From Leptospiraceae bacterium (lineage in GTDB: Bacteria > Spirochaetota > Leptospiria > Leptospirales > Leptospiraceae), in the NCBI GenBank assembly GCA_015075105.1, contig JABTUZ010000002.1:1226001-1290000 (forward strand): DNA of 64,000 bases, given 5' to 3'. The notes under the pieces were generated by a model. That model worked only from the letters and a program-made list of their open reading frames with translations, made no database searches and was not told where the DNA came from. This document shows, in pieces, positions 8,869 to 57,175 of the stretch (position 1 is its first letter; each line of letters starts with the position of its first letter). The position numbers and the translations under genes were made by a program.

Positions 8869-9074
8869 CTGTAGATTTGAAGGGTTTGGTAAAGGAATAC
8901 CGGCTCAAAAATTTGAAACGGATTTTTAGTATATTCCCCCTGTATCTTTTATCGTCCCTTTAACGCTTTAGCTTTAGCGATTTTTTTCCAAAAATTTATT
9001 TAAGACAAAATTTGGGAATTTGTCTTTAGGAGTTTTTGGAACGGTCTGCAATCGTAAACCGGGAAATAAAGCTC

Positions 9075-9098
9075 CCCTTCAGGATGAAGGGTTTTTTT
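9075..9098 (+). promoter_or_regulatory. GGA-loop hairpin with T tract in the flagellin leader
   Basis: CCCTTC (9075-9080) pairs with GAAGGG (9086-9091) around the loop AGGAT, followed by seven T. The GGA in the loop is the classic CsrA/RsmA contact, and a second GGA lies in the Shine-Dalgarno AAGGAGGG (9102-9109). Hairpin plus T tract also has the form of an intrinsic terminator, so it could act as an attenuator. Both readings are inference. Confidence 0.55.
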
Positions 9099-9113
9099 AC
9101 AAAGGAGGGTAAG

Positions 9114-9956
9114 ATGATTATCAATCACAACATCAGCGCGATGAATGCAAGCAGAGCGTTGAAATTCAACACTACCGAAGTGGACAAGTCCATGGAGAAA
9201 TTGTCAAGCGGGCTTAGAATCAATAGAGCCGGCGACGATGCTTCCGGGCTTGCAGTTTCGGAAAAGTTGAGAACACAAGTTGCGGGTTTGCGACAAGCTG
9301 AGCGTAACACTGAAGACGGAATGTCCTTCATTCAGGTTGCCGAAGGCTTTTTGGAGCAGACTTCGCAAATTCTTCAGAGGGTCAGGGTTTTGGCAATTCA
9401 GACTTCTAATGGAATTTACACACCGGAAGACAGACAATTAGTACAAGTGGAAGTTTCCGGTCTTGTAGATGAATTGGATCGAATAGCTTCTCAAGCAGAG
9501 TTCAATCGTTTCAAAGTTTTGAACGGGGACTATGCAAGAGGATCAAAAACTGCAAGCATGTGGTTTCACATGGGTGCAAACCAGAACCAGAGAGAAAGAG
9601 TTTTCATAGGTACTATGAACGCTACTTCTCTTAAAATGAAAGCCGCAGGAAGAGCTACTTCCATTTCCACTCCCGGAAAAGCCAACGACACAATAGGTCT
9701 TGTGGATTCGGCTTTGCAAAGACTCGGAAAACAAAGAGCAGATCTCGGTGCTTATTACAATCGTCTCGAACATGCGGCGAAAGGTTTAATGAGCGCTTAT
9801 GAAAATGTTCAGGCTTCTGAGTCACGTATTAGGGATGCGGATATGGCAGAGACATTCGTAGAATACACAAAAAATAAAATTCTAACGGATACGAGTCTTG
9901 CAATGGTTTCGCAAACTACAGTCAGACCTGAGGCAGTGCTCAGGCTTTTGAGGTAG
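9114..9956 (+). CDS. flaB: FlaB-type periplasmic flagellin
   Basis: The start is the ATG at 9114 (MIINHN), after the strong ribosome site AAGGAGGG; the upstream in-frame ATG at 9036 lies in the leader and would add a non-flagellin peptide. The 280-residue product has the conserved N-terminal D0/D1 coil ([20 protein letters not shown]) and C-terminal coil ([12 protein letters not shown]), with only a short middle, as in spirochaete core flagellins that lack the exposed D2/D3 domains. It would polymerise in the periplasm as part of the endoflagellar filament. A paralogue follows at 10268. Confidence 0.95.
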
Positions 9957-10106
9957 GAGGTCTATCAACATTCTAACTGTCTATAGGGATTGAGTTTTCG
10001 ATAGATATTAGATATGATGAGGAATTTAGAAACCTCAGTTCTTGGGAGAGAAAGTTTAAAAAAATAGAATCCTTTTTTTAGGAAAAAGAGTTCTTTGACA
10101 ATACAC

Positions 10107-10128
10107 TCTCCACAAATTTTTGTGGAGA
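10107..10128 (+). terminator. Hairpin, possible terminator of the first flagellin
   Basis: TCTCCACA (10107-10114) pairs perfectly with TGTGGAGA (10121-10128), and the T-rich ACTTTTCTT follows. An 8-bp stem with a 6-nt loop fits an intrinsic terminator, though the T tract is broken by C residues. Confidence 0.45.
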
Positions 10129-10226
10129 ACTTTTCTTGTAAATGATTGTCTGCCGCCCATTCGGGATAAAATCCATACGAAGCGGGGGCGGATAAGGGGC
10201 GGTTAGTAACTAACGCACCAAAGCCC

Positions 10227-10245
10227 TGGGTTATGGATGAACCCA
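10227..10245 (+). promoter_or_regulatory. GGA-loop hairpin before the second flagellin
   Basis: TGGGTT (10227-10232) and AACCCA (10240-10245) enclose the loop ATGGATG, with GGA at 10235-10237. It sits 9 nt before the Shine-Dalgarno AGGGAGGG (10255-10262), which carries a second GGA. The arrangement repeats that of the first flagellin leader although the sequences differ. Confidence 0.5.
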
Positions 10246-10267
10246 CATTTACGCAGGGAGGGTGTAT

Positions 10268-11116
10268 ATGATTATAGGTCACAACCTGGGCGCACTAAAA
10301 GCAAACAGGGTACTAAGGACTGTAAGTGAAGAGATGGATAAGTCTATGGAAAAACTTTCCACAGGACTTAGGATCAATAGAGCAGGGGACGACGCAACCG
10401 GATTTTCTGTATCAGAAAAAATGAGAACTCAAATCCGAGGGCTTGCCCAAGCAGAAAAAAATGCCATGAATGGAATTTCTTTCATTCAGGTGACAGAAGG
10501 ATCTTTAGAGCAGGTGAATGATATTCTTCAAAGGCTCAGGGAACTTTCTGTTCAATCTGCGAATGGGATATATTCTAATATGGACAGGCAACAAGTCCAG
10601 TTGGAAGTGTCCCAGCTCATTGATGAAGTTGAGAGAATTGGGAACACGGCAGAGTTTAATAATGTAAAAACTCTAAACGGGCAATTTTCAAGAGCTTCTA
10701 AAAATCCATTGTCTCTTCATGTAGGACCCAACCAGAATGAAAAACTCGACATTTATGTCGGTACAATGAATTCTGGTTCATTAAAATTGCAGTCTGCGGG
10801 AAAAAGAGAAACAATTTCTTCACCTGCAAACGCAAACAAGATGATAGGTGTAGTGGACGAAGCGATAGGAAAACTTTCAAAGCAAAGAGCCGATCTCGGA
10901 GCCTATTACAATAGAATTGAGGTCACTGCAAAGTCATTGGATACTCGGTACATGAATATGGTCGCCGCAGAAAGTCGAATTCGGGACGCTGATATGGCTA
11001 CTGAAATGGTTGAGTACACTAAAAATCAAATTCTGTCAAAGAGTGCGATGGCTATGCTTGTTCAGGCGAATGCAAGGCCCGAACAGGTTGTAAAACTTCT
11101 CACTGACAGATTCTAA
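10268..11116 (+). CDS. flaB: FlaB-type periplasmic flagellin, second copy
   Basis: The start is the ATG at 10268, five bases after AGGGAGGG; a GTG at 10262 falls inside that ribosome site. The 282-residue product shares the flagellin ends ([42 protein letters not shown]) with the neighbour but differs widely between them, so this is an old duplication. Spirochaetes commonly build the filament from several FlaB isoforms. It has its own leader and is closed by a strong terminator at 11138-11165. Confidence 0.95.
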   Translation: MIIGHNLGALKANRVLRTVSEEMDKSMEKLSTGLRINRAGDDATGFSVSEKMRTQIRGLAQAEKNAMNGISFIQVTEGSLEQVNDILQRLRELSVQSANGIYSNMDRQQVQLEVSQLIDEVERIGNTAEFNNVKTLNGQFSRASKNPLSLHVGPNQNEKLDIYVGTMNSGSLKLQSAGKRETISSPANANKMIGVVDEAIGKLSKQRADLGAYYNRIEVTAKSLDTRYMNMVAAESRIRDADMATEMVEYTKNQILSKSAMAMLVQANARPEQVVKLLTDRF

Positions 11117-53908: not shown

Positions 53909-54394
53909 TTATTGTGCTGAGGTTTTTTGTTTTTCGTCGGGTTTATGTCGTTTTAGTCTATTGTAGCGGGTCGTTTTTCTCTTGGAAAGGTAGGCTCCTC
54001 CCGCAATCGTGGTTACCGGGGTGGGAACTCCATTCTCGAAGAATCTGGTGAGGAGAATTATGTCCCATTCGGCAAGGTCAAGCACTAACAGAAGAGTAAA
54101 AAGAGCGGTCTTTGTGGTACCAAGCCAGTCTGCAAGAATCCCCAATTCAATCCAGTCCTCGTTATTTGGGGTAAAATTCTTCTTCTGCAAATTTTGCCCG
54201 ACTTCTTGATACGCTTTCTTTACCCTCTCCATCTTCTCAAAAGTCCCCCAAAGAATCACATTTCTGTATCTGTTCAGCAATGCGTGCAAATATTTTCGTC
54301 TCGAAAAACCCGTCGTTCTTCTATTGAACTCGTCCATATATTTTGCTGGAACAAGCAAGCTCGATTGGGTTTCTGTAAATTTTTGTGGGTTCAT
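53909..54394 (-). CDS. DUF1564-like protein, intact copy
   Basis: The 161-residue protein is the intact version of the frameshifted copy at 27780-28254. It has SLLVPAKYMDEFNRRT, SRRKYLHALLNRYRNVILWG, NNEDWIELGILADWLGTTKTALFTLLLVLDLAEW, and a basic C-terminus. It looks like a small helical protein, perhaps with a DNA-binding ribbon-helix-helix-like part, but this is a guess. The start at 54394 has AAGGAG. Upstream repeats at 54395-54640 match those of copy 1. Multicopy expansion in leptospires is known to me; function is not. Confidence 0.8.
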   Translation of the reverse strand: MNPQKFTETQSSLLVPAKYMDEFNRRTTGFSRRKYLHALLNRYRNVILWGTFEKMERVKKAYQEVGQNLQKKNFTPNNEDWIELGILADWLGTTKTALFTLLLVLDLAEWDIILLTRFFENGVPTPVTTIAGGAYLSKRKTTRYNRLKRHKPDEKQKTSAQ

Positions 54395-55376: not shown

Positions 55377-56483
55377 TTACGCAGGAAGAGCTAAACCTTT
55401 TTCTAACATCTCGTTATTTAAAAAAATCCCCTCTTCAATAATTTTTTGTGCGTTAGTTTCATTTTCCAGATAAAATATATCTACCAAATATCTGCCATAT
55501 TTATCAGACCCGTGAGTCTTAATGATTAAAAAAGGAAGGTCTTTTAATTTAGACTCTAAAAATTTTTTAGCCTTAGCTCCTTGTCTAGTTCCAAGCTCAA
55601 AAGCGTCAAGTCCCCTAAGCCGTAATCTCTCTTCAATAAAAATATCAAACCCAAGATCAATGGTCACAACTAGAGTATCTCCATCCACAATTTTTTCTAG
55701 AAAGGCCTTGTAAGTAAAAAGCTCTTTTGGATTTGTTCGTTCCTCAAATAGAAAACCTTCACTATTTTTGATAATTTTTACAATAGAGCCAATTTTTAAT
55801 CCACTTAAAACTAACCCCTCTTGACTATCTTTTTTATCTTTTACGATGCCGTCTAACGTCCTCATTCTAATATAGAACCCTAAGTCTAGATTTTGCACAC
55901 TGTGTGCAAAATCAGAAGAAAATTTTTGTAAAACACGGTATGTATAAAGAGACATAACCGGGCGTTTTAACCTGTCTTTTAAAGGCTTATCTGCACTTTC
56001 AACCCCTGTTTTTGGAGCTTGGTCTTTTAGTGTTTTGCGAATGACATTTTTAAACTCAAATACAGATAAGTTACTCTGAATTGCCTTTTTTTCTAACCCA
56101 ATTCGTTTTTCCATATCCGAAACTAATAACAACAATTTATAGTGTGACCAAGTAAGCTCTGAATGGATTTCACCTAAATCATACATAGAAAAAAATGTTC
56201 TCATATAGGCTAAATTCCTTTCTGAAAAGCCCTTCCCATATTTTTTATTCAAATCTTTTGATAATTGTAACAACACCCTGTCCCCATACCCGGCTCTTGT
56301 TTGATTTTTTTGCTCTATAGTTACAATACTTTCTCCAATTTTCCAATTAGAATAAAGCGTAGCCTTGTTCCAATTAGAATTACCATCACTCATAGCATCA
56401 TCATAGATTTGGGAAATATCTTTAAACAAAGAACGATAAAGAGAAGGCGAAATCCCTGTGCCTTTTTTAGAATTCATACTCAT
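55377..56483 (-). CDS. DUF1016_N-SNase fusion nuclease
   Basis: From the ATG at 56483 the product has 368 residues. Residues ~10-180 resemble the N-terminal domain of DUF1016/YhcG proteins (WKIGESIVTIEQ, YGDRVLLQLSKDLNKKYGKGFSERNLAYMRTFF, LTWSHYKLLLLV). Instead of the usual PD-(D/E)xK nuclease, the C-terminus (about 258-368) is a staphylococcal-nuclease domain: IVDGDTLVV, LRLRGLDAFE and DKYGR, so the Arg35, Glu43 and Arg87 equivalents (residues ~288, 296, 331) are all kept. It lacks a signal peptide and is probably cytoplasmic. Its ribosome site lies in the hairpin repeat bounding the adjacent transposase. Role in defence is a guess. Confidence 0.8.
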   Translation of the reverse strand: MSMNSKKGTGISPSLYRSLFKDISQIYDDAMSDGNSNWNKATLYSNWKIGESIVTIEQKNQTRAGYGDRVLLQLSKDLNKKYGKGFSERNLAYMRTFFSMYDLGEIHSELTWSHYKLLLLVSDMEKRIGLEKKAIQSNLSVFEFKNVIRKTLKDQAPKTGVESADKPLKDRLKRPVMSLYTYRVLQKFSSDFAHSVQNLDLGFYIRMRTLDGIVKDKKDSQEGLVLSGLKIGSIVKIIKNSEGFLFEERTNPKELFTYKAFLEKIVDGDTLVVTIDLGFDIFIEERLRLRGLDAFELGTRQGAKAKKFLESKLKDLPFLIIKTHGSDKYGRYLVDIFYLENETNAQKIIEEGIFLNNEMLEKGLALPA

Positions 56484-56495
56484 AACCCATAATCC

Positions 56496-56529
56496 CCCTC
56501 CATGAATTCCCTCCAGCTTTAGCTGGAGG
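56496..56529. repeat. 34-bp repeat with hairpin, left end of the transposase element
   Basis: This segment is identical to 57084-57117 in the same orientation. It ends in CCTCCAGC-TTTA-GCTGGAGG, an 8-bp stem with a 4-nt loop (56510-56529). The two repeats bracket the Y1 transposase gene, as subterminal hairpins do in IS200/IS605 elements and as REPs do around RAYT genes. The minus-strand GGAGGG also serves as the ribosome site of the nuclease gene. Confidence 0.85.
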
Positions 56530-56566
56530 AAAAAACACAAAAAAATACTACATTTTAGTCAAAATA

Positions 56567-57004
56567 CTATCCATCAAATACATCAAAACCATATTTGTAA
56601 ATAAATTCATCGTACTCTTGTTGAAACAATATATTTTTATGATGCTCTTCTTGGTTTTTGATATATTCTCTAATATGGTTCACCATTGATTCAGAAACAG
56701 AAACTGCAAAATATTCGTCTTGCCATTCAAATTTTTCTTTAGTCAATTTATTTTTATTAATCCAAAAACTCGATTCACCTTTGATTAACTGTATCACTTT
56801 TTCTATTGACCAGTCTGTACCCATTGAAACTAAACAATGGCAGTGGTCAAAATAGCCATTTACAAAATCAACAAAAATTCCCTTACTTTTTGCATTCTCT
56901 CTAATATGGTTCCACACTTTTTGCCTCAATTCTTTGGAATCAAGAAAAGGAAATCTATTTTTCGTACTCCAAACAAAATGGATATATACTTTTACAAAAG
57001 GCAT
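56567..57004 (-). CDS. Y1 (HUH) transposase, IS200/RAYT-like
   Basis: This 145-residue protein is a single-domain HUH tyrosine transposase. The HUH motif reads HCH (residues 54-56, in GYFDHCHCLVS) and the nucleophile Tyr is at 114 in HIREYIKNQEE; helices and strand order fit TnpA/RAYT proteins. The N-terminal VKVYIHFVWSTKNRFPFL is characteristic. It would cut single-stranded DNA at the hairpins at 56510-56529 and 57098-57117. No TnpB or IscB companion is present, so it is either IS200-like or a RAYT. The gene appears intact. Confidence 0.9.
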   Translation of the reverse strand: MPFVKVYIHFVWSTKNRFPFLDSKELRQKVWNHIRENAKSKGIFVDFVNGYFDHCHCLVSMGTDWSIEKVIQLIKGESSFWINKNKLTKEKFEWQDEYFAVSVSESMVNHIREYIKNQEEHHKNILFQQEYDEFIYKYGFDVFDG

Positions 57005-57083
57005 TTCAAAAAAAAGTAATACCTAATACCAATTTAGTATGACTAAACTACAACCCGCAACCATTGAAATCCCTCCATGAAAT

Positions 57084-57117
57084 CCCTCCATGAATTCCCT
57101 CCAGCTTTAGCTGGAGG
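57084..57117. repeat. 34-bp repeat with hairpin, right end of the transposase element
   Basis: Identical to 56496-56529, with the hairpin at 57098-57117. Its last bases GG begin the first unit of the 15-bp tandem repeat that follows. Confidence 0.85.
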
Positions 57118-57175
57118 TAAAGATAGAGAAGGTAAAGATAGAGAAGGTAAAGATAGAGAAAGTAGAGATAGAGAA
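57116..57175. repeat. 15-bp tandem repeat (minisatellite)
   Basis: GGTAAAGATAGAGAA is repeated three times exactly (57116-57160), with a fourth degenerate unit AGTAGAGATAGAGAA (57161-57175). The tail reads GAGATAGCTGGAG, which repeats part of the hairpin sequence. It lies between the element and the 3' end of the MORN lipoprotein gene and may vary in copy number. Confidence 0.9.

Follow-up and report, generated by a model that had tools for sequence, protein, structure and literature searches.

What does a gene do that joins the N-terminal domain of one nuclease family to the catalytic domain of another? Such a gene lies in the window, by which we mean the whole stretch of DNA analyzed here (64,000 nucleotides of a Leptospiraceae bacterium; assembly GCA_015075105.1, contig JABTUZ010000002.1, positions 1,226,001 to 1,290,000). 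The initial annotation described it as a DUF1016_N domain fused to a staphylococcal-type nuclease (SNase), and proposed a role in recognition for the first half and possibly in defence or mobile-element control for the whole. The DUF1016/YhcG family (PF17761 + PF06250; COG4804; PADLOC PDC-S02), whose members occur widely in bacteria and on mobile elements, is a nuclease type already known, in which an N-terminal DUF1016_N is likewise followed by a nuclease. Like the fusion, it is found near type I restriction-modification (RM) genes: one canonical member (locus L060) lies between HsdM- and HsdS-like genes, and a Methanosarcina case has been reported (PMC1189080). The gene and the parts of its product are as follows.

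55377..56483, minus strand: DUF1016_N-SNase fusion gene, 368 amino acids, ATG at 56483, stop at 55377-55379
56031..56417, minus strand: DUF1016_N domain, residues 23-151, all-helical in the model
56028..56270, minus strand: half of DUF1016_N that resembles the ParB/Noc-type helix-turn-helix (HTH), residues 72-152
55734..55970, minus strand: small beta-rich middle domain, residues 172-250
55380..55733, minus strand: SNase (OB-fold) nuclease domain, residues 251-368
55677..55685, minus strand: DGD, with D267 and D269 (SNase D19, D21)
55620..55622, minus strand: R288 (SNase R35)
55596..55598, minus strand: E296 (SNase E43, the catalytic Glu)
55491..55493, minus strand: R331 (SNase R87)

Pfam placed DUF1016_N at residues 23-151 (E = 2.2e-27; 96.3 bits against a cut-off of 32.8) and SNase at residues 287-366 (E = 2.1e-5; 25.4 bits against 21) within one open frame, which bears out the annotated fusion. 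The canonical DUF1016 proteins that we checked in related and distant genomes carry a C-terminal YhcG_C domain (PD-(D/E)XK), as had been assumed, whereas YhcG_C (PF06250) gave no Pfam match in the window protein at E ≤ 1. The window protein has the N domain of YhcG but is not a canonical YhcG, and the replacement of PD-(D/E)XK by SNase, usually with an extra beta domain in between, is the variant. The PDC-S02 models, which represent a candidate single-gene defence family in PADLOC whose status is itself a prediction, matched the protein in its N domain only (E = 7e-33). An AlphaFold model built with 43 relatives (mean pLDDT 87) has helices at residues 13-155, a beta-rich middle at 181-249, and an SNase OB-fold at 257-367. 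A sequence search of PDB gave no direct match to the window protein, and a profile of the fusion family matched PDB entries (thermonucleases) over the SNase half only.

The nuclease half shares the OB-fold and active-site residues of staphylococcal nuclease and phage SNase endonucleases (PF00565, phrog_452). A Foldseek search of PDB returned Staphylococcus aureus nuclease (probability 1.00, TMt 0.67, 25% identity). A phage endonuclease family in PHROGs matched residues 195-353 (E = 4e-30), and phage nucleases are about 40% identical to the nuclease part of the fusion. Where they align, these matches contain nuclease alone, whereas the fusion adds a domain that looks DNA-binding. We also considered a phage-borne fusion and rejected it: viral-contig matches in IMG/VR were confined to the nuclease part, and nowhere in a collection of phage records was 80% of the query covered.

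The residues of the SNase active site are present in the window protein as D267/D269 (D19/D21), R288 (R35), D293 (D40), E296 (E43), and R331 (R87), so that the Arg/Glu/Arg set was correctly said to be kept. In an alignment of 46 fusions, D19, D21, R35, D83, and R87 are invariant, and E43 is retained in 43. The position of D40, in contrast to staphylococcal and phage SNases, is often occupied by asparagine (24 of 46, against 19 with Asp); the other three, all Leptospira plasmid proteins, have tryptophan. The start of the middle domain aligned with that of the SNase domain (LYTY...DLGF segment; hhalign 73% and 92%), a result that hints at a degenerate repeat of the N-terminal half of SNase in the first part of the middle domain. 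Two 'Deltaproteobacteria'-like members, seen or measured in full, lack the middle domain (L099 and L105).

For the DUF1016_N half, an earlier analysis of YhcG reported no confident fold of this type of N domain (PMC1189080). What is new here is that this half appears, from profile comparison and a predicted structure, to resemble the DNA-binding HTH of ParB/Noc. When the model of residues 1-154 (pLDDT 90) was compared with PDB by Foldseek, the first 20 matches were all DNA-binding domains of ParB/Noc/Spo0J, with probabilities of 0.93-1.00 but weak E-values (0.03-0.7). By hhalign, we also aligned a profile built from 68 DUF1016_N domains with one for the ParB HTH drawn from Spirochaetota genomes, and obtained a probability of 94% over residues 72-152; reversing the profile lowered this to 0.7%, and none of 30 column-shuffled profiles exceeded 1.6%. 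Canonical DUF1016_N members alone gave 87%, in a subset whose first sequence is still that of the window protein. The window protein did not reach the Pfam cut-off for HTH_ParB (PF17762), scoring 13.7 bits where 22.6 are needed (E = 0.07), and 4 of 46 fusions matched at E ≤ 0.01 (best 2e-6). Unlike ParB, the fusion carries a nuclease, and the N-terminal CTPase domain of ParB was not found in it. A ParB-type HTH is therefore probably part of DUF1016_N, which would read DNA with it, and the likeness in fold and profile supports the recognition role first proposed for this domain. That the cutter has been exchanged in nature while the N domain is conserved also argues that the N domain carries specificity. 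A testable target would be a parS-like DNA site or feature.

The search for further DUF1016_N-SNase fusions, which the initial annotation had called for, covered a genome scan, sister genomes, and plasmids, and yielded the 46 full-length proteins from several phyla (Leptospirales, Leptospira plasmids, Omnitrophota, Alphaproteobacteria/Rickettsiales, Opitutaceae, and 'Deltaproteobacteria'). Pfam detected DUF1016_N in all 46 and SNase in 41. The distribution is patchy: among 296 Spirochaetota genomes sampled, only a handful have full-length or near-full-length matches. Copy number is high in sister genomes, where as many as 15 matches were counted and fragments are frequent, and some Alphaproteobacterial bins have four full-length, diverged copies each. 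The genome of the window has a second copy (L009), which is 62% identical and contains one in-frame TGA. Sister-genome paralogues are under purifying selection (dN/dS approximately 0.05-0.26 in all three computable regions, some values being saturated), and in several pairs the SNase half has changed less than the N half at the protein level. Independent origins of the fusion were considered: the N-domain tree has two clusters, with four 'Deltaproteobacteria'-like members apart in the free tree, but a single origin was not rejected by the AU test (P = 0.53). We found neither a published DUF1016_N-SNase fusion nor a functional study of DUF1016 in literature naming DUF1016, YhcG, or PDC-S02, which is weak evidence because subscription papers were mostly outside its scope.

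Most fusion copies in Leptospirales adjoin defence genes; those named next are intact or nearly so. The second copy of the window genome directly follows an HsdR gene; in sister genomes, two copies at orthologous loci adjoin HsdM (L038 and L039), one an HsdS-like gene (L042), one IetA and IetS (L043; E = 1e-102 and 7e-160), and one an AbiL-type ATPase (L050; E = 8e-86). Beyond Leptospirales, an HsdM-like gene with PDC-S01 (L093), AbiEii (L096), and HipA (L114) were found near the fusion, and ResIII helicases lie near two copies (L059 and L099). Many copies outside Leptospirales are single genes amid housekeeping genes, with no defence neighbour. In a survey of 141 neighbouring proteins, N6_Mtase occurred in four, HsdM_N in three, and Methylase_S in two, which by informal judgement looked like an enrichment over background, although N6_Mtase genes are numerous in these genomes (3-37 matches in seven of eight and one in the eighth).

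Around the window copy lie an IS200-like element and genes for a cobalamin adenosyltransferase and DUF1564, and none of the few close neighbours examined is a defence gene. The suggested link to defence is thus supported by relatives of the gene and not by its own surroundings. The single-strand transposase noted beside the gene is real:

56496..57121, minus strand: IS200-like element with a copy of a 38-bp direct repeat at each end, within which lies a 20-bp palindrome
56567..57004, minus strand: Y1_Tnp (IS200-like) transposase, single copy in the genome, Pfam E = 2e-27

The two copies of the repeat (56496-56533 and 57084-57121) are 97% identical. The 3.4-Mb genome contains the palindrome at just two places, one on each side of tnpA, and the transposase has just one weak match elsewhere in the genome, so that any link to transposition looks incidental. 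Y1_Tnp is also absent from the 25 commonest neighbour families of other fusion copies. A partnership with the transposase was therefore rejected, and the IS200-like element is probably not part of the fusion system. Two almost identical DUF1564 genes (94% identity over 714 bp) lie at 53909-54394 and at L009:15260-15721, within approximately 3 kb of both fusion copies of the genome, and short repeats were seen upstream of the L009 copy. Rfam found nothing in the window and one unrelated tRNA across six fusion loci.

As the likeliest reading, a modular nuclease may be proposed, in which DUF1016_N would bind a DNA site or feature through its ParB/Noc-like HTH, the small beta domain would serve as a spacer, and the SNase domain, probably Ca2+-dependent, would cut the nucleic acid so marked. 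The nuclease might move between defence loci and distinguish self from non-self. This variant of the DUF1016/YhcG (PDC-S02) family probably acts on its own, as an accessory nuclease in defence; we put the odds of this reading at about even. SNase is usually nonspecific, which has to be reconciled with sparing of the host and was counted against the defence reading, as were the housekeeping surroundings of the window copy and of many copies outside Leptospirales, the predicted status of PDC-S02, the lack of any experiment on DUF1016 function in the literature covered, the weak Foldseek E-values for ParB, and the frequent replacement of D40. A broader and more tentative reading, somewhat doubtful in our view, is that DUF1016_N is a ParB-derived DNA-recognition module with interchangeable cutters (PD-(D/E)XK or SNase), and would define an as yet unrecognised class of single-protein nucleases for defence that are modular and site-directed; if true, one domain would account for targeting throughout a large candidate family of defence nucleases.

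Numerous and often broken copies are expected of defence genes that are rapidly gained and lost, and the same turnover fits selfish genes. The nuclease might instead spread its own gene between sites in the fashion of a homing endonuclease, leaving scattered solitary copies and decayed remnants. The many fragments among the matches of a single genome, the lone insertions amid housekeeping genes, a conserved 3' non-coding flank common to different copies in three sister genomes, and the palindromic repeats flanking all four copies in REEB439 are consistent with this. However, the flank also occurs without the fusion gene, beside toxin-antitoxin and RM genes, and may be a general dispersed repeat, and neither a common insertion site nor a target duplication has been shown. 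We regard a selfish gene as unlikely, yet as deserving more weight than the explanations that follow.

On Leptospira plasmids, the fusion gene lies just upstream of an RHS or Rpn gene at all four loci examined (L005, L006, L007, and L008), and HTH-regulator and 7TM-kinase-like genes adjoin it in several of them, in an arrangement that looks like a repeated module. One explanation is that the fusion works in association with toxin or conflict cassettes, as an effector or regulator. The linkage to RHS/Rpn was seen on Leptospira plasmids only, however, and the window copy has no such neighbours; moreover, the plasmid proteins, with tryptophan for D40, score below the Pfam cut-off for SNase. As an account of the family, this seems distinctly improbable. 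We give still less credence to a housekeeping enzyme of the host for DNA processing or recombination. An older profile analysis placed YhcG among nucleases resembling Holliday-junction resolvases (PMC1189080), but the rarity of the fusion in Spirochaetota and its multiple, frequently broken copies do not suit such a role. Finally, two genes joined by a frame or assembly error were rejected as an explanation: nothing was found in its favour, the frame is uninterrupted, and the architecture recurs in 46 proteins from independent genomes.

Several minor observations concern the flanks of the fusion copies. The 3' flank shared in the three sister genomes is approximately 100-500 bp long; it was located at L038:7516-8100, with similar segments in L039, L040, L042, L050, L056, and L043, and the solo copies beside toxin-antitoxin and RM genes are weaker (L202-L219). 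We compared its ends by eye with the core pattern of attC and found the two cores in an order unlike that of attC; the idea of an integron cassette was rejected on that comparison. The repeat in REEB439, CTGGATCCCCGCCTGCGCGGGGATGACG, lies within approximately 350 bp of each fusion copy (L083, L085, L088, and L089). In an Omnitrophota locus (L081), a separate SNase-like gene (8995-9618) is located directly upstream of a full fusion gene (9631-10650).
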